Shown here: positions 237-33,871 of the stretch, one piece after another
Layout of the letters: every line of letters begins with the position of its first letter
Numbering within the stretch: the first letter of the stretch is position 1
DNA from: Coffea arabica
Lineage: Eukaryota > Streptophyta > Magnoliopsida > Gentianales > Rubiaceae
DNA: 64,000 nucleotides
Assembly: GCF_036785885.1 (NCBI RefSeq)
Contig: NC_092323.1
Span: forward strand, 9,556,501-9,620,500
Reading direction: 5' to 3'
Program-made: the position numbers and the translations under genes
Notes under the pieces: model-generated
Seen by the model: the letters and a program-made list of their open reading frames with translations, nothing else
Databases searched by the model: none
What the model was told of the DNA's origin: nothing

Positions 237-3200
237 GTGGATATACCTGTACAACAAAGCTATCTGTGGTATGGCTCAAGCGCAGGAGACACTGATGGCC
301 AGGTATCGACTTCTGTGTAATTCGACTAAAATCAACTGTACAATTGCAATTCTACTTTTGAACCGATGAATTAATTATTGATTTCCATGTCTAATATCTT
401 ATTAGCCCTCTGGTGCTTATATTTTCCGCCCGGATGGTTCTCCTCCAAGAATTGTCTCAAGATTGGTGAGTGAAGAAATTTAACCCAACAGAAGATGCTC
501 ATTTTACGATTGACTTGAAAAATGCATAAATTCACACACATTTCTTGTTTCCTGACAACACTGAAAAATGAGAAATATTTTGTTTCTTAGCAGAGATCAT
601 TGGATGCTGGTTTGAAATGCCAAATTCTAGTAGCTTATCTACTCTATCCACTAACTAGCTCCAAAACTTTTGATATAACGTACAGGTTTCCTTGAAGGTT
701 ATACGTGGACCACTATTTGATGAGGTTCACCAGGAATTCAGTTCATGGATCCACCAGGTTTTGATCTTCGATGACTTTGTGTTTGTGGAATTAGAAATAT
801 GGGGGCTTCCTAAAATGCAATTGGTCACACACCCAGATAGTTACTAGACTTTCATAGTTTGGTCTATGCTTTTCAGGGAAACAGCACCTGTATTAGACAC
901 ATTTTTTTGTCTTTCTTCACTCAAGTCATGCAAATTTTTGCATTCAATGAAGTTCTGTCTTACTTTCAAATCTCAGGTCGTTAGAGTGTACAAGGAAAAA
1001 GAGCATGCAGAATTTGAGTTTACTGTAAGTCAATAATATTTGCTTGTTGTCTCTTATTACCGAAACCAATGTACCAAATGGACCTCACTTTTAATCAATT
1101 ATGAACTTATATGGTATTCTTTTCATTGAAGATTGGTGATATCCCCACAGATGATGGTATCGGGAAGGAGGTCATTACTCGATTGACTGCTAATATGGCC
1201 ACAAACAAAGTGTTCTATACTGATTCCAATGGAAGAGACTTTCTGAAACGGGTAATTGTCATGCAACTCTTTACAGAGAACACCAGAAAATCGCTTATCT
1301 TTATTATAAAGTTTCCCTGATTTGCTTCCATCTGCTTACTTGGTCACATGTATCAGGATTTTTGGGTCAACAGCACAAATGGCAGTCTTAATTTTCTGTA
1401 CTGTGAAATTTCCTTCACTGAAAAAGTACACTGGTTTGCTTTTGTCAAGAGAAAATTTTCGCTTTAATGCCACCACTGTTGAAAGTCTCCAAATATGTCT
1501 TACTTACATGAAGATCAGTTTCAGAGATAAAGTTCTTTTGGGTTCATCTGGAACCATAGGCTCTAAGTTTAGGCAGTTGATAAGTTAGTAGCAGCTTAAA
1601 GTTCACATTGGATTGCAATTTTTCAAAGAAAAATTTTTATGTTTATTGTGATCACACGTCTCAATTATCTTTTTATCTTATATACATCAAATCACTGTAG
1701 TATATTTTTCTACAAAAACTCAAAAAAATAGCAATCCAAATGAGACCTAAATCTTCCACTGGAAAGCTGCTTCTAACAGATCTATACACTTTACGGGCCA
1801 TCTATAAACCAATTCATTTAAAATTGTCAAATTAGCAAAATTCAAGGCCTCACTGTACAACTTGAGCAAATGCCTTGAAGCTTAACTGGAAAAAACATTA
1901 GCTCAGATATCGATTACATTGAGGTGGAAGTTTGTTGTAGTCTACTTTATCATAGTTAACAAAAACCTCTGTTATTCTGTCTTAAATTTGAGATGAACTG
2001 TCAACAGCCAAATGGTACTACTGTCTTAGAATGTTAAAACCTGTATTGTCGTAGTAGCAACAATGGTATGGGCAATGCTACTTTGACTTTGTCATACAAA
2101 TGATATGCTACTGGCACAGGAACCAATATGTCCACCGGAAAGTACTATTGCAATTTCCGGGTAATCACGCTCAGGAATGGACACTAGTTCCTGTTCGTAC
2201 AATCCCAATATGCAGGGTTCCATTGTTATTCTTGAGCTCTTCCTGGCTGAGCCGTTAGTACTTTTAGTTGATTATTAACTGTCTTGGCTAGCCTAGTTTG
2301 TCTGGCTTCCAGGAGACATAATCAAGATTTTACTTTCGTTAATATAATGTCGACTAGCTCCTTCTAAGAAAATTATAGAGCCTGAGATATCAGTGCTTAA
2401 AGTTCATAGACTTGTTATGTGATATCCATCTGATATTTCCAGTCTTTTACTTCACACTTTCTGGTTAATTTATTAATAATTTGCTTTGCATTATGTTGGT
2501 TCTCAGGTCCGAGATTTTAGACCTGACTGGCCTCTTCACGTTACACAACCAGTAGCAGGGAACTATTATCCAGTTAAGTTCTGAATCTTATATACTTGAA
2601 AACTGATGTTTACTGAACTTGAAACCTTTATCTAGTTAACTACTAACCAGTTACAGGAAAGGGTGTCAAAGATGAAAATTGAGCTCACAGCTCTGTCTGT
2701 CCTGGATTAGCTGTAATAAATTGATGTCTTATAAATGGTTCTATCTTTATGTGTATCCTTTGTTGTGTAGTGCTATTACATACATGATAGGCTTCATTTC
2801 TTGGCTTTTTTAGTCAAAGCCTAAGAAAGTACGTAACTTGAAAATGTACTAAAATCGCGTCTTTAGTAGATTGTACTGTCTCATATTGATATGTATGATG
2901 GGAATCAGACAATATATGACTCCAGATAGAATCATACAAAAGGCTTGTCAAATATTTGTCCCATTTCACCCTTTTAATCTTTTGGGCTGGGCAGATATAA
3001 TGAGCTAGAAATTGGGATGATATGAAGTTTAATATTCTCCAGTTTTTCGACCATTTTAAAGAATATATGCTGTGATTTTCTTATTTTGATGACTAAATCT
3101 CCATTTACTAATACAGCTTTTATGTCTAATTTTCAGCTTAATAGCGGAATCTTCATAGTGGATAACAGCTCTGAATTCTCTGTTTTGGTTGATCGTGCCT

Positions 3201-5062
3201 GCGGAGGATCCAGCATTAAAGATGGACAAATAGAAATCATGCTCCACAGGTTCAAGTAGCGTCTCTAAGCTACATATTTCTGACATTGTGCTGACTGATC
3301 TCATGATTGAATGCTTTAATGTGGGCATATGCCTATATCATTTTCCAGACGCCTAATTGACGATGATGGTCGTGGAGTGAACGAAGCACTTGATGAAGAA
3401 GTATGTGTTGGAACATTATGTCAAGGACTCACGGTATGGAGTTTCTTGACCATTCGGATTTGTTTAATTTCCTGATTGTATGGTGTCATAGACTTGAGAT
3501 GCAAATTCTAGATGTGGAAAGATCAGGTTCTTGATAATCCAGCAGCTAAAATCGCAAATGTAGTCAACATCGTAGCACTATTTGGTAAATTCGAGGATGC
3601 AAATCCTAGTCTTAGTTTCCATTCTGTGCTCCACAGATTTGGGATATCTTAGTATAACTAGGAAACTCTTGAAACTGTCAAGTTGGAATACACCAAAAAA
3701 GTTTTGACATTTTCTTGCCTTTGTATCTTCTGGGAGATGAAACTGGCCATTTGATATAAATTAAATTATAATCAGGTTCGAGGAAATTATTATGCAAGCA
3801 TCAATCAGCTAGGTGCTGGAGCTCGCTGGCGCCGAAGAACCAGCCAAGAAATCTACTCACCTCTCCTTCTAGCATTCACACATGAGGTAACAAGAATCCT
3901 TGTTGCCATCATAAAAAGTGACCAGAGTCTTCTGAATTGTAATCCTGTGCTAATCTTAAAGCTATGTTTCAGAAATCAGGTGATTGGAAATCTTCCCACT
4001 TGACAAAGGCAACCATTATGGACACAAATTATAATTTGCCCCCTAATGTGGCATTAATTACCCTGCAGGTAATTGCTTACGAAACCCCTCCACATGTTGC
4101 CTGATGTTTTATCTAGTACTCACGTTAGGTTTGCAGGAGTTAAATGATGGAAGCGTGCTTCTCCGTTTGGCACATCTCTATGAGGTATTTTCCACCACCA
4201 TGGTGCTTCCTCTTTCTTTCTTTTTCCTCCCTTTCAAATTCAAGTAAGAAATGAAGGACGGGTGGCTTAGTGGATTGCCATTTGCAGAGGATTGCAACTT
4301 ATGCTTAGGTTGATGAGTAGCTGGGCATTGGACGCTGGTAATTGAGATAATGAAACTAAAACTTTCCCAACCAACGAGAAGAATAATATGATTAAATGGC
4401 AGAAGTACTGGGGCATTTAAGACGATTCCACCTTGTTTCTAAAAGATAGATAATTCAGATGCATAGTCAATTGATGAACATACCAACTTGTTTAAGAGAT
4501 TCTTATGATGATCAGGCTGGTGAGGATACAGTACTCTCAACGTTAGCCGCTGTCGATCTGAAGAAGTTGTTTGGTGGGAAAACGGTACGTAACAAGAAGC
4601 CTCATTTCATCTTCTTCAGCGTTTCATCCATACCATAGCCATAGTATAAGATTGCACTTTTTCTGCTGATTTATGCACATAACTTAGGCTACAGGTTATA
4701 GGTACTGATTTGCACAGATAGATTAAAGATTACTATGTAAACAGCCATCGGGGAAGAGTATGGCCAGTTTTCGTCGTGCCAATAACCTTATCTACTATGC
4801 TTCTTGTGAATAAAATTCATATTGAAGAGTCTGCTCTCTCGAGTTTGAGTAAATTATTTTCCACAAAATGCAGATGAAATCAATAGTAGAAATGAGCTTG
4901 TCAGCTAACCAAGAGAAATCCAAGATGAAAAGAATGACTTGGAAAGTTGAAGGTGAGAACGCGAAAGATCCTGCACCAATTAGGGGTGGCCCTGTAAACG
5001 TCAGAGCACCCGTTGTTCATCTTGGCCCCATGGAGATTCGTACTTTCCTCTTGAAATTTTGA
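237..5062 (+). CDS. Alpha-mannosidase (GH38, lysosomal type), 3' part of gene
   Basis: This is the C-terminal 380 residues of a plant lysosomal/vacuolar-type alpha-mannosidase (glycoside hydrolase family 38), which trims alpha-linked mannose from N-glycans in the vacuole or apoplast. Exons read as 237-302, 406-465, 686-757, 977-1024, 1132-1251, 2507-2572, 3137-3249, 3349-3433, 3776-3886, 3973-4068, 4137-4184, 4516-4584 and 4874-5062, all with GT-AG borders and consistent phase. Recognisable family stretches are RPDGSPPRIVSRL, QPVAGNYYPLNSGIF, RWRRRTSQEIYSPLLLAF and HLGPMEIRTFLLKF before the stop. They belong to the beta-sandwich half of the enzyme. The zinc-binding and catalytic residues lie upstream of the window, so activity cannot be judged. 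The 1.25-kb intron at 1252-2506 carries a MITE. No internal stops or frame changes were seen. Bases 1-236 look like intron. Confidence 0.93.
1607..1740. mobile_element. MITE inside an alpha-mannosidase intron
   Basis: A roughly 130-bp AT-rich element is bounded by the inverted repeats TTGGATTGC (1608-1616) and GCAATCCAA (1731-1739). Its core resembles the two head-to-head elements at 47531-47814, sharing GTGATCA and an ACAT(C/T)AAATC..TGTAGTA-like segment. It lies wholly within the 1252-2506 intron, away from the splice sites. It has no coding capacity. No target duplication could be fixed by eye. Confidence 0.6.
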
Positions 5063-20309: not shown

Positions 20310-23300
20310 GTTGCGTCACTTCGATGCTCAAGAAGATGCAATGGCTCATGCAGCCAGCAACAGTCCCTCTGTTACCTTTGAGTCTCCACCATCTTCATTC
20401 AGGGCAATGGGGTTGTGGCTGAGAAGTTATGTTAACAGAATTCTTGCCTCTGCTAATTCTTGTAGAAGAAACCGATCTCGTTGCTGCAAGAGAACTTTCA
20501 ATAGGGATGTTGAAGCTGAAGAACTTCAGGATACAAGTACTGTTTGTCTCTCATCATACTACAGCGTTTTCATGGTTCGTCTTGCAATCATGGTATGTGA
20601 ATTTTGTCCCTGCAATGGACTATTAAGGTGATATTAGGCTATATAGTTATTACCAGGCCAGCATCAAGTATGATTGGTTGCGGAAGCTCTTGAAAGCAGT
20701 ACTAAAAATAGAAAGATGCTGCATATGCGCCTATTTTCCTTTTTAATGCTCAGTAAATGGTGAACCCATGACATTTGACTACTTATTGAGTACTCCGTCA
20801 TTGTCTCTTTCTCCTAATTAGCCAGTACATGGCCAACTTTTCCATTTCTGCAGAATGATTTAAATGGACCTACTTTTTATTATGCTTTTTCCTTGCTTTC
20901 CTTTTCTCGGGTTACAGTGGTGAAAACGATATAGGTTCCTGTCATGGACGTTGATCATCTTCTGGTTGTTTTCAAACATATTTGGATTCTAGTGCCTCAT
21001 GTTCGTGGCTTCAACTTTCATGCAGGTCATGCTTGCAATTTTGATTGGCATGCTAACTTTACTAACATGGCATTTTACTAAAGTTTATACACAAAGATCA
21101 CTGGATACATTAGCCTATGGACTTCGGTTTGAACTACTGCAGCGACCCATGCTACGAATGTGGAACATCATAAATTCCACTGTTGAAATAACAACAGCTC
21201 AGGTGAAATTGTCAGAATATGTAATCAGGAGGTACAGCAAGCCTGTCAATCAAGCACAGCAAGTTGAGGTTGTTGCTAAGTGGAGTCTTCCTTCTCTTTT
21301 CTTAATTTCTAGTCAATCAGTTTGCTGTAAATCGTGCCTGCAATTCTTCAATGTATTGTATATTTGTATTGTACATCTTACTTCTCCTGGCTGTTGTCTC
21401 TTTAACAGTTGTATGAAGTAATGAGAGACGTGACCTGGGCACTATTTGCAAGTCAAAGAGCTCTCAGCTCAATAACCATAAACTACAGAAATGGTTTTGT
21501 TCAAGCTTTCCATAGAGATCACAGGAGCAACAAAACTTCCTACATATACTCCGATCTCGTCAACTATTCAATAAACGGGTATGATGCCGATACGCTGTCT
21601 TCTCATCAAGGGTGGAATGATCAATCCATACATGGAAATATGTCTGCAATTTGGTATCGGCAACCTCTAGACCCTGTTACAGGTGAAAAGATCGGGAAAT
21701 CAAGCCCAATACCGCCAGATGAACTAATCAATATTGCTGGCATCTCACAAATACCTGATGGTGCGGCTTCATGGCACGTGGCAGTGAGCAAGTATACGGA
21801 TTCTCCGCTGCTTTCTGCAGCATTACCTGTTTGGGACTCATCTAAAGAAAGCATAGTAGCTGTTGTAGGTGTTACTACAGCACTTTATAGTGTGGGTCAA
21901 CTAATGAAAGAACTTGTTGGGTTCCACAGTGGACACATATACTTAACCTCTCAAGAAGGTTGGTTGCTTGCTACTTCCTCAAATACTCCTCTGTTAATGA
22001 ATTCAACAACGGGACCAAAGCTCATGATGGCTGTTGATTCGGAAGATCGTGTAATACGTTCTGGAGCTGAGTGGTTACAGAGAGTATATGGTGACAAGTT
22101 TCCTTTGAATGATGAAGTTCATATAGAAAATGCAAGGCTTGGTCATCAGCTGTATTACATAGACTCATTTTTCCTCAACTTAAAGAGACTTCCCATGGTA
22201 ACCTATTGAATACGTATGAACTCCATTTTCATGATAAGAAATACAAAATAATGATGCCTTATCATTTTTTGAATCGTTCATGCATAGATAAATATGCAGA
22301 TGATTTAACTTTACCAATATAATTTTGCTTATTTTGGCATCAGGCCCTGGTCAACATATGCTAACAAGAATTTACGTACAGGTGGGGGTTATAATCATCC
22401 CAAGAAAGTATATCATGGGCAAGGTGGATGAGAGAGCTTTCAAGACATTAGTAGTTTTGATATCAGCATCTGTTTGTATCTTAGTAGTTGGATGTGTTTG
22501 CATCTTTGTATTGACTAATGGGGTGTCAAAGGAAATGAAGTTAAGAGCAGAATTGATTAGCCATCTTGATGCGAGGAGGAAGGCAGAAGCATCCAGCAAC
22601 TATAAAAGCCAGTTTTTAGCAAACATGAGGTAAGAATCTACATCAGCTTTTTGGTTATGTACAGATAAGTGGATCAAATAATGTCCTTTCTTAGCGTTCA
22701 CATTCATGTTCTTTTTGGATCTTAACTTTCTGCTTAAGTCTAATCTTTGGCAACTCTGAACTGAAAGTATCCTAACTAACCTGGATCCCACACCATGTTG
22801 GGAATCTGAATATTCAGAAATCAAATTTCCGAGAATTTTGGATTTATAGTATGATGTATGGAGATTTATGAACCTGGAACTTTTCAAAAATCCTTTGCAG
22901 TCATGAGCTACGAACACCTATGGCTGCTGTGATTGGGTTGCTGGACATCCTGGTTTGTGATGATTGTCTCACCAATGAGCAGTATGCAAATGTTACGCAA
23001 ATTCGCAAATGTTCAACTGCTTTGCTCCGTCTTCTTAACAATATATTGGATCTCAGCAAGGTGAGCTATACATTCAAGGATCTTTCCTGTTAACTCTTGA
23101 ACCATTTGTTGCAACAGATCTCAACTTAAAGGGCATGACTCAATGTACTTTTCTACAGTTTTCATGTGGATATCTAGAAAGTTGTTGCTATTTTGTCTCG
23201 TGTGTGCGAATAAGCATTAACCTAAAAATTTATTCGTGGAACTAAAAGGTTTACAACAATGGATCCGTCTCTGGTCGGAGAGTTTCTTAAGTAGATTTGG

Positions 23301-26300
23301 GAGTTCCTGTGATCATAAGAGAATGTAATTGTCCAACAAGTTTGTAAATTCAACCTGTTTGGAAAAGAATTATCTTAGACAGGATTTTAGCTCTTTGGTT
23401 TCTCATTTTCCTCTATCCTTGTCTCATTTTAGTACAATTTGTATAGGTAGAGTGCAGAATTGATAGAGAACCTTTTCTTCTGTGTGAATGGTGTTGTTCC
23501 TCCTAAAGTATAGTGGAAGTGTATTGCCAGGCTTTGCAGTTATGGATTCTCTTCTGAAACTTTTCCACAGGTTGAATCCGGAAAACTAGTGCTGGAAGAA
23601 ACTGAGTTTGACTTGGGCCGGGAACTTGAAGGGCTTGTTGATATGTTCTCTGTCCAGTGCATTAACCACAATGTGGAAATCATTCTAGATCTCTCTGGTA
23701 TGCCCATATACCCAAACTGAATGACAAAACAACCTTTCCTCAAAGGTTAATATCTGCATTTTCTAGTATTGGTTGCTGCTTATTATGTTTATTGGTAGAT
23801 GACATGCCAAAATTAGTTCAAGGAGACTCTGCTCGAGTTGTTCAAATTTTTGCCAACCTCATCAGCAACTCTATCAAGTTTACAACTTGTAAGTTTGACT
23901 TGCTCATCAGCAGGACTCCATTGTAGCTTCTCAATCATCAAAGTAATTGAACTTGAAATTCACCACTGCTTGGTGTGAGGAAAAAATTTTACGAATAAAA
24001 AGCACTAAGAAAATTGACCGACCACTCAGATGAAAGAAACCACATGATTCAGGAAGGAGCACAGTGGTTTATTTGTTACAACAATGAAAAGCTAAGAGAT
24101 CATATTGCAGATCACATTTTAAGAAGATGTTAATTTGAATCAATTTTCAGATTGTTGAAACATCAGTACACCTACAATTCTTGAGTTTATTTAAGTACGG
24201 TGAAGGATACTCGACATTAACCTGTTAATATGGTTAGGAATAGACTTGAATATGCTCAAGGAAGAAAGTTAATTGAATGCATCCTGGCAATTTTAGATGT
24301 GAAGCATCTCTACAATTCTTGAAGTAAACTTGCAGAAAATAAAAAATTTTCTCCTGCCTACAGCTGGCCACGTCATTCTTCGGGGTTGGTCTGAAAATCC
24401 AAATTCTGTCCTTAGCAGCGGGAAGTGTTCAATTAGTCAAAAGGATTCTTGGCCAGGACAGAAGATGAAATTAAAGCTACATGGAAGCCACGGAAAGAGA
24501 TCCTTGAAGAAAGAAAACAAGATGGTTCTTTGGTTTGAAGTCGATGACACAGGGTGTGGTATGAACTTGCAGTTAGTTATACAAACCTAGACAGGAAATC
24601 TTGACGTTGTCTTTATCATTTCTTTTTCGTGAATTATGTAGGAATCGATCCAAGCAAATGGGAATCTGTATTTGAAAGCTTCGAGCAAGCTGATCCTTCA
24701 ACTACTCGCTTGTAAGTATACTGTATCAAGTAACTGCAGTTGATGCCCTAAAGATGAGCTTAACGAGTGCACCATCTTGAATTGTCTATTAAGTTCTCAA
24801 TTTTTTTAATCATTGTAGATCCAATTAATTACTGGAAATAAACTTTGAGAAAATTGTCCTTCTGTTTTTTCAATTTCAGGCATGGTGGTACTGGTCTCGG
24901 TCTTTGCATTGTACGAACCTTGGTAAGCTGAAAACATGCTTAAAATAATTTGTAATTCTCCTGAAACTTAACACTCATCCCTTAAGCAAAATTATTTCAA
25001 GTCTGGCAGCAGGTAGATGTCCCAGGTGCTTTATTTTTCATTAGCTGGTGAAATGGGAGAATATGATTTCATGCTTTCACTTTTTGCATTGTTCCAGAAG
25101 GTGGAGCTAAGATATGCATTAGAACCGATTGTGTGACCTGAATTATATACACCACAGCTACAAACATCTTTAGACTTGTTTCATGATGGAGTAAATTCAT
25201 CAGTGCGTCTTAGAGGAAAGCATCTCGACATATTTCAGTATAGTACTGCTGGAATTTTGAAACCTCTAAACAGAAACACTGACAGAAACAAAAGAAAAAA
25301 GCAACCATCTTGCTGTTTTTCATCCTTTTTCATGTTTACGTAAGGCAAAAGTTGTCCCAACAGGTTAACAAGATGGGTGGAGAGATCAAAGTTGAAAAGA
25401 AGAATGGGCCAGGTGCTCTGATGCGACTGTACCTAATTCTCAGCACACCTGCAGATCCAAATGGTGCAGGAAAGCATTGCCAATTCAAATTCAAAGAACA
25501 TAAATTGACAGTGAGTAAATTATTTGAAGTTCTTTCACCCTTGCATTGTAGAGTTTCAATCTTATTCTCTAATAATTCACAACAGCTACACTTCTTGGTT
25601 ATTTGTTGTGGGTAACATTAAGGCTAATACATAATCTGTATCATTGCAATGCTATTCATAATCGGCTGCAATTCCACTTTAATTTTGTTAATAAACCATA
25701 CAAAATAATATACCCAAGTAACTTATTGATGGACCTAATTTATCAGATCGATCATAATAAATTTGGATGCAGATGTTGCTTGCACTTAATGGAAGAATGG
25801 GTAGATCGACTATGGCCCAATGGTTACAGAAAAATTTGGTGCACACATATGAAGCATCTGAATGGAATGAACTGACACAAACTCTTCAGGAACACTTCAA
25901 AGCAAGTTACATGCATATTCCACCGGGTGAATTTTCTGAAAGTGAACAAATGCATACGCAAGGCATCAGCATCTCAGTTGTCGTCATAGTCATTGATATT
26001 GGGCTTCTTGAATTAAGCACGGATATATGGAGGGAACAGCTCGCTTACCTGGATAAATACAGTAGCATAGCTAAGTTTGCATGGATTTTGAACCATGATA
26101 CACCCAATGCTATTAAGGCAGAACTTCGTTGGAGAGGGCATCTATTGATGGTCAGTAGACCACTTTACAAGGCGAAAATAGTTCAGATTTTGGAAGCTGT
26201 GATAAAGGATCAACAGATGGAGCTTCAGAAGTATGTGACTGCTACAATAGAAGGAAATTTGAATGAATGCCATGAAATTGATGCTATTCATTCTTGGACT

Positions 26301-27296
26301 CCCAGCTCTGATGACTCTGACAAGTCAGAACATGATGATCTTAGACTTGCGAGTCCATTTTACAGGACACCTAATGCCTCTCCATCCCTAAATAGGACAC
26401 CTAACGGACATCATGCTGAATTTGCTCATGTGAGGTATGAAGAAAATGCTTGCAACAAGAAAAATCCAGGTCAGACGAGAGAAGAAGAGCAACAGTCTCC
26501 TATTACTTGCCTTAAAGAGAGAGAGACTGTGCGTATAAGTATGGATGAACAGAGTTCTTTAAAGGGACTACGTATACTGCTTGCAGAAGATACTCCAGTC
26601 CTTCAGAGAGTTGCTACTATAATGCTGGAAAAGTTGGGGGCCAAAGTTGTGGCTGTAGGAGACGGACTGCAGGCAGTCGAAGCTCTGAAATTCATGTTGC
26701 ATTCAAGTGAATTGAGAAAGGAGTCTCCCGTGGAAGATGACAACTCAGAAATTATCACCGCCAATGGACTTTCTTTGCTGCCATATGACTTGATCCTAAT
26801 GGATTGTCAGGTAGGATAGTTGAAATCAAGCCTAACTATTACAATGCTTTTGCATGTTGGTTGTTTCTAACTTTCTCATTCTGGTGGAAATTCATTGAGT
26901 CTAATAACAAGCTGATCTTACCCTTTCCACACTAAAAAATTGTCAAATACCAGAAATTCCATAGGACTCTTCAGGCATTGGCTAATTTGCACTATGATTA
27001 ATTACATATTGCACTTTAAGTAAGAGCTTTTTGTAAAGTCCTGATTTTCATATCTGATGTCATTATCTTCCCATTATCAGATGCCAAAGATGGATGGCTA
27101 TGAAGCAACAAAAGCAATCAGAAAGTCAGAATTGGGTTCTGGTTCCCACATCCCAATTGTCGCGCTGACAGCTCATGCAATGTCATGCGATGAAGCCAAA
27201 TGCTTGGAGGTGGGGATGGATGCTTATCTGACGAAGCCAATTGATCGCAAGTTGATGGTTTCAACTATTCTTTCCTTGACCAAGAGAACAGCCTAA
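20302..27296 (+). CDS. AHK1: Hybrid histidine kinase, AHK1 (osmosensor) type
   Basis: Thirteen exons read 20302-20592, 21026-21268, 21409-22197, 22382-22629, 22901-23060, 23571-23697, 23799-23888, 24364-24558, 24642-24711, 24880-24922, 25364-25510, 25773-26810 and 27081-27296. They give 1,218 residues, close to the roughly 1,200 of Arabidopsis AHK1. A first membrane segment (about 90-115) and a second (about 463-488, [19 protein letters not shown]) flank the sensor domain. The kinase core has the H box [10 protein letters not shown] (phospho-His 525), an N box ([14 protein letters not shown]), a G1 box (VDDTGCGID) and a G2 box ([11 protein letters not shown]). The C-terminal receiver has acidic residues 1073-1074 (LLAEDTP), phospho-acceptor Asp 1145 (LILMDCQ) and Lys 1199 (YLTKPID). 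The family autophosphorylates on His and passes phosphate by relay to HPt proteins, acting in osmotic stress and ABA signalling. Translation may start at 20302 or 20341. All key residues are present. Confidence 0.95.
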
Positions 27297-27993
27297 AACT
27301 ATTACATCAAGCTTCCAAACGCATAACAGCTTTTGCCATCTTTACTTGAACGGAAATGCTCAACTTCACAGGAGAAAGAAGCTGGAAAAAAACTGTATGC
27401 TCGAGAAATTTTTGCAGTGAGTACAGAAAATGGTGCAAGCCATGTTGTAGAAGTGCGATTGGTTTCTATAAGCATGTAATATGGTAAAACTTCGAGTTCA
27501 TGAGCTTAATTTTGTCTACTAAAATCGAAATCGTGTTCGTCCACGTTTGTAGCAACTAGCAATATATCAATCACCAAGTTGTTAGCTGGTTACTTCTTGG
27601 CGCCTAGCCATAATCAATATTGTATGCTCTCTTTCTCGGAATCTCCTAAAGAGCTCAAATGATGGGAACACACTTTGATTCTAGTAATAAAATACTTGCT
27701 CGTTCTTATATTCAAATAATGACTATCATCCAAAAACTAAATCCAAACTTTGGTTCGCAGAACAAATTAACTTCTATCAGTTGACTCTAAATAAGTGTTT
27801 ATTCATATTTGATATTAATAATTATATGAAAAATAAAGCAAACAAAATTATAATCACAAATATTGTTTACAAACTTTTAACCATCCGATAAAAGACAAAA
27901 TCAAGTACAAACAGATACCTTTTCCCTAAAAAAAAAATTAATTATACATTAGTAAACCTGTTTTCCCGGAGAAAAAAGAAAAACACATGATAA

Positions 27994-28067
27994 TGGCTCA
28001 TGCAGGTCTCGAACCTGAGACCTTCGCGTTATTAGCACGACGCTCTAACCAACAGAGCTAATACGCC
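27994..28067 (-). tRNA. tRNA-Ile(AAU) copy 1, degenerate
   Basis: This 74-base copy keeps the anticodon loop CTAATAA but has four changes from the array consensus. There is a 4-69 mismatch from two acceptor-stem changes (GGCG start, GAGCC end), A14 is changed to T, and a T-stem pair is lost. It is probably not functional, or only weakly so. Confidence 0.7.
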
Positions 28068-28463
28068 GGCTATGGTGATTGGATGCACTTTTTTTTCGGA
28101 ATCTCCTAAAAGGCTTAAAGGATCGGAACATACTCTGGTTCTAGAATTAAAATACTTGCTCATTCTTATACTCAAATAATGGCCATCATCCAAAACTTCA
28201 CTCAAACTTTGGTTCGTAGAACAAATTAACGTATATCAGTTGACTCTAAATAAGTGTTTATTCATATTTGATATTAATAATTATATGAAAAATAAAGCAA
28301 ACAAAATTATAATCACAAATATTGTTTGCAAACTTTTAACCATCCGATAAAAGACCAAATCAAGTACAAACACACAGTCACACACCTTTTCCACACAAAA
28401 AAAATATAGTTATACATTAGTAAACCGGTTTTTCCGTGAAAAAAAAAGATAAAAACATGCTAA

Positions 28464-28537
28464 TGGCCTATGCAGGTCTCGAACCTGCGACCTTCGCGTT
28501 ATTAGCACGACGCTCTAACCAACTGAGCTAATAGGCC
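28464..28537 (-). tRNA. tRNA-Ile(AAU) copy 2
   Basis: Full-length cloverleaf with anticodon AAT. It has one change from the consensus, at position 68, which turns a T-G acceptor-stem wobble into a T-A pair. All stems pair and A14 is present, so it should be functional. Confidence 0.92.
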
Positions 28538-28922
28538 GGCTACGGTTGTTGGATGCTCTTTTTTTTCGGAATCTCCTAAAGAACTCAAATGATCGGAACA
28601 TACTCTGATTCTAGTAATAAAACACTTGCTTATTCTTATACTCAAATAATGACCATCATCCAAAACTTCAACTCAAACTTTGGTTCGTATAACAAATTAA
28701 CTTATTTCAGTTGACTCTAAATAAGTGTTTATTTATATTTGATATTAATAATTATATGAAAAATAAAGCAAACAAAATTATAATCACAAATATTGTTTAC
28801 AAACTTTTAACCATCCGATAAAAGACCAAATCAAGTCAAACAGACACATTTTCCACACAAAAAAAAACAGTTATACATTAGTAAACCTGATTTCCCGGAA
28901 AAAAGAGAAAAACACATGCTAA

Positions 28923-28996
28923 TGGCCCATGCAGGTCTCGAACCTGCGACCTTCGCGTTATTAGCACGACGCTCTAACCAACGGAGCTAATAGGCC
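28923..28996 (-). tRNA. tRNA-Ile(AAU) copy 3, A14C variant
   Basis: Matches the consensus except that invariant A14 in the D-loop, which is also part of the A-box promoter, is C. The change affects the 8-14 tertiary pair and the internal promoter, so function is doubtful. The same change occurs in copy 6. Confidence 0.8.
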
Positions 28997-29384
28997 GGCT
29001 ACGGTGATTGGATGCTCTTTTTTCTCGGAATCTCCTAAAGAGCTCAAATGATCGGAATATACTCTGGTTCTAGAATTAAAATACTTGCTCATTCTTATAC
29101 TCAAATAATGGCCATCATCCAAAATTTCAACTCAAACTTTGGTTCGTAGAACAAATTAACGTATATCAGTTGACTCTAAATAAGTGTTTATTCATATTTG
29201 ATATTAATAATTATATGAAAAATAAAGCAAACAAAATTATAATCACAAATATTGTTTGCAAACTTTTAACCATCCGATAAAAGACCAAATCAAGTACAAA
29301 CACACACCTTTTTCACAAAAAAAATATAGTTATACATTAGTAAACCTGTTTTTTTCGGGAAAAAAAAAGATAAAAACATGCTAA

Positions 29385-29458
29385 TGGCCCATGTAGGTCT
29401 CGAACCTGCAACCTTCGCGTTATTAGCACGACATTCTAACCAACTGAGCTAATAGGCC
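29385..29458 (-). tRNA. tRNA-Ile(AAU) copy 4, degenerate
   Basis: Anticodon AAT is kept. Two changes break the D-stem (GAGC becomes GAAT), one breaks a T-stem pair, and one alters the base next to the T-stem. It probably represents a pseudogene. It shares two changes with copy 7, its counterpart in the duplicated block. Confidence 0.75.
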
Positions 29459-29476
29459 AGCTATGGTTGTTGGATG

Positions 29477-29982
29477 TAGGCCTGTCAACGGGTCGGGTCT
29501 AGACCGGGATCCGGACCGGATTCGTGAAATTATTGCGGGTATGGGTAGGGATTTAATTCCGTTTTCCGGATCCGGATCCGGATCCGTTTTGTCAAACAAA
29601 AAACGGATCGGATACGGAATATAGTATTCCGGCCCGTATTAGACCCGGATCCGGATATAAATGAATTAATAATTTAAAAAATATATATTTATCAATATAA
29701 TTTGATTAGGGTGATGTATTTGAATAAAGTCAATTTGATTTCTTATCTTATTTGATATTTTCTTTGCATTAGTTAGAAATTAGTTTACAAATATATTTTT
29801 TTCTCATTTTTATTAGAAATTATAAATTTTGCTAAATTTGTTCGGGTAGACCCGACCCAGATCCGGAACATAGAATAAAAGACCCGTCGGGTAAACGGGT
29901 CGGATCCGGGTCCGGTATAGTAATTCGGGTTCGGGTCCGGAATAATGAATTCCGGCCCGGACCCGGCCCGTTGACAGCCCTA
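29477..29982. mobile_element. hAT-type non-autonomous element, 506 bp, 8-bp TSD
   Basis: Its ends are inverted: TAGGCCTGTCAACGGGTC at the left and GTTGACAGCCCTA at the right. This matches the TAGGGCTGTCAA ends known for plant hAT MITEs. It is flanked by a perfect 8-bp duplication GTTGGATG at 29469-29476 and 29983-29990, the length typical of hAT insertion. The sub-terminal parts are rich in GGATCC/CCGG motifs (repeated GGATCC near 29565-29590 and GGGTCCGG near 29905-29960), and the centre is AT-rich. It has no transposase. It sits in the spacer between tRNA copies 4 and 5. Confidence 0.92.
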
Positions 29983-30361
29983 GTTGGATGCTCTTTTTTT
30001 TCGAAATCTCCTAAAGAAATCAAATGATCGGAACATACTCTGATTCTAGTAATAAAACACTTGCTTATTCTTATGCTCAAATAATTACCATCATCCAAAA
30101 CTTCAACTCAAACTTTGGTTCGTATAACAAATTAACTTATATCAGTTGACTCTAAATAAGTGTTTATTCATATTTGATATTAATAAATATATGAAAAATA
30201 AAGCAAACAAAATTATAATCACAAATATTGTTTGCAAACTTTTAACCATCCAATAAAAGACCAAATCAAGTACAAACACACACCTTTTCCACAAAAAAAA
30301 AAATATAGTTATACATTAGTAAACCGGTTTTTCCGGGAAAAAAAAGATAAAAACATGCTAA

Positions 30362-30435
30362 TGGCCCATGCAAGTCTCGAACCTGCGACCTTCGCGTTAT
30401 TAGCACGACGCTCTAACCAACTGAGCTAATAGGCC
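30362..30435 (-). tRNA. tRNA-Ile(AAU) copy 5
   Basis: Full length with anticodon AAT and A14. One T-stem change makes a G-T wobble instead of G-C. The fold is otherwise intact, so it is probably functional. Confidence 0.9.
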
Positions 30436-30820
30436 GGCTACGGTTGTTGGATGCTCTTTTTTTTCGGAATCTCCTAAAGAAATCAAATGATCGGAACATA
30501 CTCTGATTCTAGTAATAAAACACTTGCTTATTCTTATACTCAAATAATGACCATCATCCAAAACTTCAACTCAAACTTTGGTTCGTAGAACAAATTAACT
30601 TATTTCAGTTGACTCTAAATAAGCGTTTATTTATATTTGATATTAATAATTATATGAAAAATAAAGCAAACAAAATTATAATCACAAATATTGTTTACAA
30701 ACTTTTAACCATCCGATAAAAGACCAAATCAAGTCAAACAGACACATTTTCCACACAAAAAAAAGCAGTTATACATTAGTAAACCTGATTTCCCGGAAAA
30801 AAGAGAAAAACACATGCTAA

Positions 30821-30894
30821 TGGCCCATGCAGGTCTCGAACCTGCGACCTTCGCGTTATTAGCACGACGCTCTAACCAACGGAGCTAATAGGCC
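30821..30894 (-). tRNA. tRNA-Ile(AAU) copy 6, A14C variant
   Basis: Identical in type to copy 3: consensus sequence with A14 changed to C. It occupies the matching place in the second 1,384-bp block. Confidence 0.8.
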
Positions 30895-31282
30895 GGCTAC
30901 GGTGATTGGATGCTCTTTTTTCTCGGAATCTCCTAAAGAGCTCAAATGATCGGAATATACTCTGGTTCTAGAATTAAAATACTTGCTCATTCTTATACTC
31001 AAATAATGGCCATCATCCAAAATTTCAACTCAAACTTTGGTTCGTAGAACAAATTAACGTATATCAGTTGACTCTAAATAAGTGTTTATTCATATTTGAT
31101 ATTAATAATTATATGAAAAATAAAGCAAACAAAATTATAATCACAAATATTGTTTGCAAACTTTTAACCATCCGATAAAAGACCAAATCAAGTACAAACA
31201 CACACCTTTTCACAAAAAAAATATAGTTATACATTAGTAAACCTGTTTTTTTCGGGAAAAAAAAAAGATAAAAACATGCTAA

Positions 31283-31356
31283 TGGCCCATGTAGGTCTCA
31301 AACCTGCAACCTTCGCGTTATTAGCACGACGTTCTAAGCAACTGAGCTAATAGGCC
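31283..31356 (-). tRNA. tRNA-Ile(AAU) copy 7, degenerate
   Basis: Anticodon AAT is kept. Changes lie in the T-stem, next to the T-stem, in the T-loop (TTCGAGA becomes TTTGAGA), in the D-stem and at a D-loop base. It is probably a pseudogene and is the block partner of copy 4. Confidence 0.75.
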
Positions 31357-31745
31357 AGCTATGGTTGTTGGATGCTCTTTTTTTTGGGAATCTCCTAAAG
31401 AAATCAAATGATCGGAACATACTCTGATTCTAGTAATAAAACACTTGCTTATTCTTATGCTCAAATAATTACCATCATCCAAAACTTCAACTCAAACTTT
31501 GGTTCGTATAACAAATTAACTTATATCAGTTGACTCTAAATAAGTGTTTATTCATATTTGATATTAATAAATATATGAAAAATAAAGCAAACAAAATTAT
31601 AATCACAAATATTGTTTGCAAACTTTTAACCATCCGATAAAAGACCAAATCAAGTACAAACACACACCTTTTCCACAAAAAAAAATATATAGTTATACAT
31701 TAGTAAACCGGTTTTTCCGGGAAAAAAAAGATAAAAACATGCTAA

Positions 31746-31819
31746 TGGCCCATGCAGGTCTCGAACCTGCGACCTTCGCGTTATTAGCACGACGCTCTAA
31801 CCAACTGAGCTAATAGGCC
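31746..31819 (-). tRNA. tRNA-Ile(AAU) copy 8, consensus
   Basis: Full consensus cloverleaf of 74 bases with the discriminator A. The acceptor stem pairs GGCCTAT with ATGGGCC, the D-stem pairs GCTC with GAGC, and the anticodon loop is CTAATAA. The T-stem pairs GCAGG with CCTGC around the loop TTCGAGA. Anticodon AAU, with A34 normally edited to inosine, reads AUU, AUC and AUA. Confidence 0.96.
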
Positions 31820-32204
31820 GGCTACGGTTGTTGGATGCTCTTTTTTTTCGGAATCTCCTAAAGAACTCAAATGATCGGAACATACTCTGATTCTAGTAAT
31901 AAAACACTTGCTTATTCTTATACTCAAATAATGACCATCATCCAAAACTTCAACTCAAACTTTGGTTCGTAGAACAAATTAACTTATTTCAGTTGACTCT
32001 AAATAAGCGTTTATTTATATTTGATATTAATAATTATATGAAAAATAAAGCAAACAAAATTATAATCACAAATATTGTTTACAAACTTTTAACCATCCGA
32101 TAAAAGACCAAATCAAGTCAAACAGACACATTTTCCACACAAAAAAAAGCAGTTATACATTAGTAAACCTGATTTCCCGGAGAAAAAAGAAAAACACATG
32201 CTAA

Positions 32205-32278
32205 TGGCCCATGCAGGTCTCGAACCTGCGACCTTCGCGTTATTAGCACGACGCTCTAACCAACTGAGCTAATAGGCC
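32205..32278 (-). tRNA. tRNA-Ile(AAU) copy 9, consensus
   Basis: Sequence identical to copy 8 over the whole 74 bases, with A14 present. Expected to be functional. Confidence 0.96.
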
Positions 32279-32662
32279 ATCTACGGTGATTGGATGCTCT
32301 TTTTTCTTGGAATCTCCTAAAGAGCTCAAATTATCGGAATATACTCTGGTTCTAGAATTAAAATACTTGGTCATTCTTATACTCAAATAATGGCCATCAT
32401 CCAAAATTTCAACTCAAACTTTGGTTCGTATAACAAATTAACTTATATCAATTGACTCTAAATAAGTGTTTATTTATATTTGATATTAATAATTATATGA
32501 AAAATAAAGCAAACAAAATTATAATCACAAATATTGTTTACAAACTTTTAACCATCCGATAAAAGACCAAATCAAGTCAAACAGACACCTTTTCCAGAAA
32601 AAAAAAACAGTTATACATTAGTAAACCTGATTTCCCGGAGAAAAAAGAAAAACACATGCTAA

Positions 32663-32736
32663 TGGCCCATGCAGGTCTCGAACCTGCGACCTTCGCGTTA
32701 TTAGCACGACGCTCTAACCAACTGAGCTAATAGGCC
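32663..32736 (-). tRNA. tRNA-Ile(AAU) copy 10, consensus
   Basis: Identical to copy 8. Expected to be functional. Confidence 0.96.
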
Positions 32737-33122
32737 GGCTACGGTGATTGGATGCTCTTTTTTTTTTGAATCTCCTAAAGAGTTCAAATGATCGGAACGT
32801 ACTCTGATTCTAGAATTAAAATACTTCCTCATTCTTATACTCAAATAATGACCATCATCCAAAACTTCAACTCAAACTTTGGTTCGTATAACAAATTAAC
32901 TTATATCAGTTAACGCTAAATAAGTGTTTATTCATATTTGATATTAATAATTATATGAAAAATAAAGCAAACAAAATTATAATCACAAATATTGTTTACA
33001 AACTTTTAAGCATATGGTGAAAGACCAAATCAAGTACTAACAGACACCTTTTCCACCAAAAAAAAAAAACAGTTATACATTAATAAACATGTTTTCTCGG
33101 AGAAAATAGATAAACATGCTAA

Positions 33123-33142
33123 TGGCCCATGCAGGTCTCGAA
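33123..33142 (-). pseudogene. tRNA-Ile remnant (copy 11), 3' end only
   Basis: Only the last 20 bases of the tRNA (acceptor 3' strand and T-arm half) remain. The sequence then joins the spacer at TTTGGTTCGTAG, which normally lies about 200 bp away. The unit is 263 bp instead of about 460. Confidence 0.9.
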
Positions 33143-33385
33143 ATTTGGTTCGTAGAACAAATTAACTTATATCAGTTGACTCTAAATAAGTGTTTATTCA
33201 TATTTGATATTAATAATTATATGAAAAATAAAGCAAATAAAACTATAATCACAAATATTGTTTACAAACTTTTAAGCATATGGTGAAAGACCAAATCAAG
33301 TACTAACAACTTTTCCACCCAAAAAAAAAACAGTTACACATTAATAAACCTATTTTCTCGGAGAAAATGGATAAACACATGCTAA

Positions 33386-33406
33386 TGGCCCATGCAGGTC
33401 TCGAAC
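33386..33406 (-). pseudogene. tRNA-Ile remnant (copy 12), 3' end only
   Basis: As in copy 11, the tRNA is cut inside the T-loop and joined to the spacer, giving a 272-bp unit. The join falls where tRNA CTCGAAC and spacer CTCAAAC resemble each other. Confidence 0.9.
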
Positions 33407-33657
33407 TTTGGTTCGTAGAACAAATTAACATATATCAGTTGACTCTAAATAAGTGTTTATTCATATTTGATATTAATAATTATATGAAAAATAAAGCAAA
33501 TAAAATTATAATCACAAATATTGTTTACAAACTTTTAAGCATCTGATGAAAGACCAAATCAAGTACTAACAGACACCTTTTCCTCCAAAAAAAAAAAAAA
33601 ACAGTTATACATTAATAAATCTGTTTTCTCGGAGAAAATGGAAAAACCCAAGCTAAT

Positions 33658-33731
33658 TGGCCCATGCAGGTCTCGAACCTGCGACCTTCGCGTTATTAGC
33701 ACGACGCTCTAACCAACTGAGCTAATAGGCC
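33658..33731 (-). tRNA. tRNA-Ile(AAU) copy 13, consensus
   Basis: Full consensus tRNA at the right edge of the array, with intact stems and A14. It is the copy nearest the next protein gene and is transcribed away from it. Confidence 0.95.
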
Positions 33732-33871
33732 AGCTTCGGCGATTAATGTTCACAAATTTTAATCATGAATAGAAAAGGTAGGCGCAGTGTATTAAAGAAG
33801 GTGAAGCATGGGTGACACTGGGGTTGGATGCATAGGTGGAAGAAGAGGAAGAAAGGTGTTCGATTGCAGCG

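Follow-up and report, generated by a model that had tools for sequence, protein, structure and literature searches.

A tandem cluster of tRNA-Ile(AAU) genes in Coffea arabica with a twin array on the homoeologous chromosome

A 64,000-nucleotide stretch of the Coffea arabica genome (assembly GCF_036785885.1, contig NC_092323.1, here C14, positions 9,556,501 to 9,620,500; hereafter, the window) carries a tandem array of transfer RNA (tRNA) genes for isoleucine, and this array is the subject of the present analysis. ARAGORN, run on the whole window, found 11 tRNA genes between 27994 and 33731, all of them minus-strand tRNA-Ile genes with the anticodon AAT. The identical 11 genes were recovered with the Rfam model RF00005, with scores between 45.5 and 68.7 bits (cut-off 29). 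Apart from them Rfam gave no match above cut-off in the window. Tandem Repeats Finder detected a repeat with a period of 459 base pairs (bp) and 11.9 copies (27620-33142, score 7215), adjoined by a sub-array with a period of 263 bp and 3.0 copies (32871-33678). Two more units terminate in tRNA remnants, in which the 3' part of the gene is fused to spacer (junctions at 33130 and 33393), and a query made of spacer only matched 13 units. The initial annotation had described thirteen head-to-tail units of about 460 bp over this span, each with a minus-strand tRNA-Ile(AAU) or its remnant, and both the count and the extent were confirmed. The window sequence contains no N. The units, with tRNA differences counted from the consensus, are as follows.

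27620..33732, minus strand: whole array, 13 units, tRNAs read leftwards (ARAGORN, Rfam, Tandem Repeats Finder, spacer query)
27994..28067, minus strand: w1 tRNA-Ile(AAU), 4 differences, 51.4 bits
28464..28537, minus strand: w2 tRNA-Ile(AAU), 1 difference, in the acceptor stem, which increases the Rfam score, 68.7 bits
28923..28996, minus strand: w3 tRNA-Ile(AAU), A14 to C, 60.3 bits
29385..29458, minus strand: w4 tRNA-Ile(AAU), 4 differences, 49.2 bits, with a hAT-like insert 18 bp upstream of the 5' end
30362..30435, minus strand: w5 tRNA-Ile(AAU), 1 difference, 61.8 bits
30821..30894, minus strand: w6 tRNA-Ile(AAU), A14 to C, 60.3 bits
31283..31356, minus strand: w7 tRNA-Ile(AAU), 5 differences, 45.5 bits
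31746..31819, minus strand: w8 tRNA-Ile(AAU), identical to consensus, 66.6 bits
32205..32278, minus strand: w9 tRNA-Ile(AAU), identical to consensus, 66.6 bits
32663..32736, minus strand: w10 tRNA-Ile(AAU), identical to consensus, 66.6 bits
32737..33142, minus strand: w11a, complete spacer with a 3' tRNA remnant at its end, joined to spacer at 33130
33143..33405, minus strand: w11b, truncated 263-bp unit that closes with the 3' remnant of a tRNA (junction at 33393)
33406..33731, minus strand: w11c, truncated spacer and the outermost full tRNA-Ile(AAU) (33658-33731), identical to consensus, 66.6 bits

A published definition of a tRNA cluster asks for three or more tRNA genes in 1 kb (PMC11700998). 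The genes of w2 to w4 lie within 996 bp (28464-29459); averaged over the array, the genes are sparser, at 11 in 5.7 kb. All 11 ARAGORN genes share one anticodon and one strand and recur together with their spacer at a period of 459, as in a head-to-tail array of a single isoacceptor. The Rfam cut-off for the tRNA fold was passed by all 11 window genes, w1, w4 and w7 scoring lowest (45.5-51.4 bits), and by all 10 genes of a second array described below. T runs, which would serve as RNA polymerase III terminators, are found within 45 bp 3' of every array tRNA.

The second array lies on C13, the homoeologous partner of the window contig. It comprises 13 units, with 10 tRNA-Ile(AAT) genes (ARAGORN and Rfam) and three truncation junctions, in a stretch colinear with the window; blocks longer than 1 kb outside the array region are 88.6 to 97.0% identical, the blocks that overlap the arrays (n = 82) having been counted only and excluded from these identities. 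The end junction sequences are common to both arrays, save single differences. In a genome-wide search with the spacer query, all 26 matches listed fell inside the two arrays, 13 in each, these counts being lower bounds. Dispersed tRNA-Ile matches likewise occupy neighbouring contig pairs, for instance C3/C4, C11/C12 and C21/C22, which fits an allotetraploid with 11 chromosome pairs. Since a colinear 13-unit array with matching end junctions lies on the partner chromosome, the array and its truncated units, judged from sequence, predate the separation of the parent species of C. arabica, which is placed at 4 to 6 million years (PMC11018527).

The initial annotation had suggested that the array might be recent and confined to one lineage, and had proposed counting copies in related genomes. 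The partner chromosome carries 13 units as well, and recency is not supported for the array as a whole. Part of the window array does look young, the units w3 to w5 and w6 to w8 being about 99% identical, yet only this block duplication inside the window array gives that impression, and 13 units, matching end junctions and common truncated units on both chromosomes make a recent, single-lineage origin highly improbable. Copying between the chromosomes after polyploidy would evade this objection, but same-type array units differ by 3 to 6% between chromosomes, which argues against a very recent copy. We claim no date for the block duplication: divergence gives conflicting clocks, the near flanks differing between chromosomes by 0.94% (318 columns) and 1.34% (1939 columns) and the wider flanks by up to several percent.

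Exons on C17 and C18 match PDB entries for xanthosine and dimethylxanthine methyltransferases of coffee, with 0 differences over 140 aligned residues between the C17 exon and entry 2eg5, a xanthosine methyltransferase from C. canephora. This exon hinted that the odd contigs belong to the canephora side and the window contig to the eugenioides side, but it was too thin a basis for an assignment. List position would make C13 and C14 pair 7, which is suggestive only; in C. canephora, chromosome 7 is reported to carry 55 tRNA genes, second to chromosome 2 (PMC7549347).

Full units are 87.8 to 99.1% identical to one another in the window and 88.6 to 97.6% in the partner array, and they fall into three types. 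With units cut at the tRNA, the partner array (units b1 onward) reads A B C three times, and the window array contains mosaics: w4 and w7 join a left part of type A to a right part of type B, C is followed by B in w5 and w8, and w10 begins as A and ends as C. Cutting the units in the spacer core instead (alignment columns 170-300, about 130 columns) turns all five mosaics into plain types. The order is then alpha beta gamma, three times, in the partner array, and alpha beta gamma beta beta gamma beta beta gamma gamma, followed by the truncated units, in the window. A period-3 excess as large as the one observed was reached by 15 of 5000 order shuffles for the window and by 2 of 5000 for the partner array. 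Block w3-w5 matches block w6-w8 at 98.9 to 99.1% identity per unit and, on this resemblance, is a duplication within the window array. The three types in two orders, the period of three and the repeated block of about 99% identity agree with the proposal of the initial annotation that the similarity of the spacers points to unequal exchange or gene conversion.

The main intervals in which one type switches to another (columns 129-163, 167-197 and 129-153) lie inside or beside the spacer core, as unequal exchange would predict, and none of the three falls in the tRNA despite equally long identity tracts there. The chance of three independent core switches within 68 of 486 columns is 0.059, or 0.011 if the truncation junction is taken as a fourth. 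Several observations weigh against exchange being focused on the core, and its confinement there is suggestive only. Switches outside the core occur in w1, which is a multi-part mosaic, in b7 at column 383, near the tRNA, and in w11a at 114/115; b10a switches at both 162/163 and 261/262; very short switches are found at the left ends of b1, w3, w6 and w9; and among 73 dissimilar pairs the longest identity tract lies in the tRNA in 32 and in the core in 35.

Divergence was measured among full units, 10 from the window (with the insert removed from w5) and 9 from the partner array. The spacers had been reported to be as conserved as the tRNAs, and this does not hold: mean pairwise divergence is 4.3% for the tRNA and 7.5% for the spacer in the window, and 1.35% and 9.5%, respectively, in the partner array, giving spacer-to-tRNA ratios of 1.8 to 7 across the two arrays. 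The lower divergence of the tRNA than of its flanks was matched by only 25 of 10000 column shuffles. Among C/G columns, those that vary number 12 of 41 in the tRNA, 9 of 29 in the core, 32 of 52 in the left spacer and 16 of 25 in the right spacer; for A/T columns the figures are 2 of 33, 8 of 101, 28 of 97 and 16 of 60. Only the core of the window array, at 1.9%, is less diverged than its tRNA. One might therefore suppose that the spacer is itself a functional element, such as a second non-coding RNA or an enhancer, for which the array is retained, and the truncated units, in which the core is kept and the tRNA lost, would be in keeping with this. We consider it very unlikely, since the core of the partner array, at 4.3%, exceeds its tRNA in divergence, and since same-type cores differ between the chromosomes by 1.3% (beta) and 1.9% (gamma), much like the near flanks (0.9% and 1.3%), so that no special constraint is needed. 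On these two counts core conservation was rejected as a sign of function; in addition, tRNA was the only Rfam family to score above its cut-off in the window or the partner stretch.

One unit of the window array is interrupted by a transposable element.

29477..29982, no strand assigned: non-autonomous hAT-like element of 506 bp inside unit w5, with an 8-bp target duplication (GTTGGATG) and imperfect terminal inverted repeats in which 23 of 28 end bases match

The copy of GTTGGATG on each side and the terminal inverted repeats are those expected of a hAT-type element, and related elements of about 506 bp occur in at least 40 other places of the coffee genome at 89 to 96% identity (among the best of 858 candidates). 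Because w8, the near-twin of w5, is without the element, the insertion probably took place after the block duplication. That the units themselves are a transposable element which captured a tRNA gene has a precedent in the proposal made for the tRNA-Cys cluster of Arabidopsis, which overlaps Helitron annotations (PMC10701932). For the coffee units such an origin is barely conceivable: the spacer matches listed all lie inside the two arrays, unlike those of a transposon family, and the sole clear transposon here is a late insertion.

The same element bears on whether the assembler multiplied the copies. Units that are 99% similar invite this suspicion, which the initial annotation had raised. 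However, copies carry private changes, and of the two near-identical blocks one has the transposon and the other does not. Unit order also differs between the arrays, and the window is free of N. HiFi reads are usually longer than the array of about 6 kb. The assembly statistics, moreover, match those of a C. arabica HiFi assembly built with hifiasm and Hi-C (1,198 Mb, 132 scaffolds; PMC11018527, Table 1). An artefact is thus extremely unlikely, the worry being weakened rather than closed.

Gene preservation differs between the arrays. Eleven of the 21 array genes equal the consensus and the rest carry 1 to 5 changes; the consensus copies are w8 to w11 in the window (4 of 11) and b2, b3, b5, b6, b7, b9 and b10 in the partner array (7 of 10), leaving 7 of 11 and 3 of 10 genes changed, respectively. 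Some changes recur, namely, A to C at position 14 in w3 and w6 and C to T at position 57 in w7, b1 and b4. The 5' part of the tRNA is lost in five units over both arrays, two in the window and three in the partner. Outside the arrays, 20 dispersed loci hold 23 tRNA-Ile(AAT)-like genes, of which 16 equal the consensus, 4 have one change, 1 has two and 2 have six or seven. The arrays thus contribute 21 of the 44 tRNA-Ile(AAT) genes found in the two arrays and the dispersed loci. The two most altered dispersed genes are a decayed homoeologous pair on C12 and C11, carrying 6 and 7 changes, of which five are common to both. A separate mini-tandem of tRNA-Cys(GCA) genes, with a period of 140 bp, has 3 copies on C3 (2369111-2369463) and 2 on C4 (ARAGORN; 3014-3355 of the extracted stretch).

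Active tRNA genes show raised divergence in the sequence beside the tRNA, a mark of transcription-associated mutation. As a control we took 30 homoeologous pairs of dispersed tRNA genes; one pair lacked a tRNA on one side, and of the 29 remaining, 11 with an alignment identity below 0.92 were set aside, so that 18 were used. In these masked alignments divergence in the nearest 50 bp was 2.81 times that at 101 to 300 bp (bootstrap 1.93-4.01), and two other computations gave similar values. The rise in homoeolog divergence within 50 bp upstream of the dispersed genes is about threefold, and 7 of 1334 columns of the tRNA itself are changed. With the same masking the arrays gave 1.85 times overall, unevenly spread among unit types (beta 3.69, alpha 2.20, gamma 0.60). 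The near-gene excess in the array was reached by 2 of 10000 shuffles without masking, but by 2459 of 10000 under strict masking, which leaves no difference. As a sign of past transcription of the array, the mark is therefore equivocal.

Decay driven by methylation was also considered and was not decisive. Observed-to-expected CpG ratios in the spacers are 0.84 and 0.71, against 0.50 to 0.51 in the 20-kb flanks, and this CpG content does not suggest long, heavy decay through CpG methylation. Among 15 distinct tRNA changes, 9 are C to T or G to A and only 4 lie at CpG. In the spacers, 7 of 10 CpG, 7 of 11 CHG and 42 of 87 CHH sites are variable.

A neighbouring gene lies to the left of the array, which it does not enter.

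27081..27293, plus strand: final coding stretch of a response-regulator receiver protein (PF00072, 49.7 bits), outside the array and ending about 320 bp to its left

The gene spans 20999-27293. In addition to the receiver domain it has a weak, below-cut-off match to dCache at 21409-22206, and it probably encodes a hybrid histidine kinase.

Taken together, these data are best read as a tandem cluster of a single isoacceptor, tRNA-Ile(AAU), with a homoeologous twin, an origin before the parental split and later reshaping by unequal exchange or conversion and by decay, a reading to which we assign a probability of roughly 0.87. One tRNA-Ile gene would have been duplicated head to tail, together with some 390 bp of adjoining sequence, before the parent species separated, since the array, its end junctions and its truncated units are common to both chromosomes. 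Unequal exchange or conversion between units would then have remodelled each array, with switches mainly in or beside the core; we infer the molecular process from these patterns. Such exchange would have produced the alpha-beta-gamma period of three and the duplicated three-unit block of the window array, while copies were born and decayed, as the changed tRNAs and the 5' losses in five units suggest. The intact copies could in principle supplement the tRNA-Ile(AAU) supplied by dispersed genes, of which about 21 are well preserved. Arabidopsis clusters are described as methylated and largely silent, one of them being reactivated in root tips (PMC12308677), and by analogy many of the array copies may be quiet.

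A bolder view is that the array is a selectively kept reserve of tRNA-Ile(AAU), a higher-order repeat of three types maintained at 13 units in both lineages, in which exchanges in the core spare the tRNA genes and renew the copies. We think this unlikely. If it were true, the homoeologous pair would be a natural experiment on the use of clustered plant tRNA genes; a purely passive array would still illustrate neatly how copies arise and decay through unequal exchange. Plant tRNA clusters are common, but little is known of how old they are, how they turn over and how they are used. In coffee, two versions of one array evolved apart in two parents and now share one nucleus, with an equal number of units and a different order and decay, and in such a dated pair private changes in the mature tRNA could reveal which copies are transcribed.

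Among known systems, the closest in form is the tRNA-Cys(GCA) cluster on chromosome 5 of Arabidopsis thaliana, which also consists of one-tRNA units, of about 420 bp and 84 to 94% identity, with a tRNA pseudogene at the edge and copy changes by whole units (PMC10701932). It differs in having 4 to 6 Cys units and Helitron annotations (PMC10701932), whereas the coffee array has 13 Ile(AAU) units of three types with period three, two homoeologous arrays and one late hAT-like insertion. A second parallel is found in a species coded Cpu, which we take to be Ceratodon purpureus, a bryophyte. There, too, a plant has tandem tRNA-Ile(AAT) copies, but in clusters of 26, 18 and 14 genes whose copies are 100% identical (PMC12652284). 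Zea mays has a tandem of 28 tRNA-Ile genes on chromosome 2 and three smaller Ile clusters (PMC11700998); it is a monocot, and the likeness is drawn at the level of tRNA-Ile tandems. That survey reports an Ile stretch only for maize among its 68 angiosperm genomes, and tandem tRNA clusters for 40 of 44 eudicot genomes. The Pro and Ser-Tyr-Tyr clusters of Arabidopsis are likewise large tandem tRNA clusters, but of other isoacceptors and with measured expression (PMC12308677). In the open-licence literature listed by our searches no paper describes this coffee array, and the earlier remark that an Ile(AAU) array of this form was unfamiliar is weakened by the tandems of maize and Cpu. The coffee array is thus an ordinary plant tandem tRNA cluster of a kind already published, and its homoeologous twin is its most useful feature.

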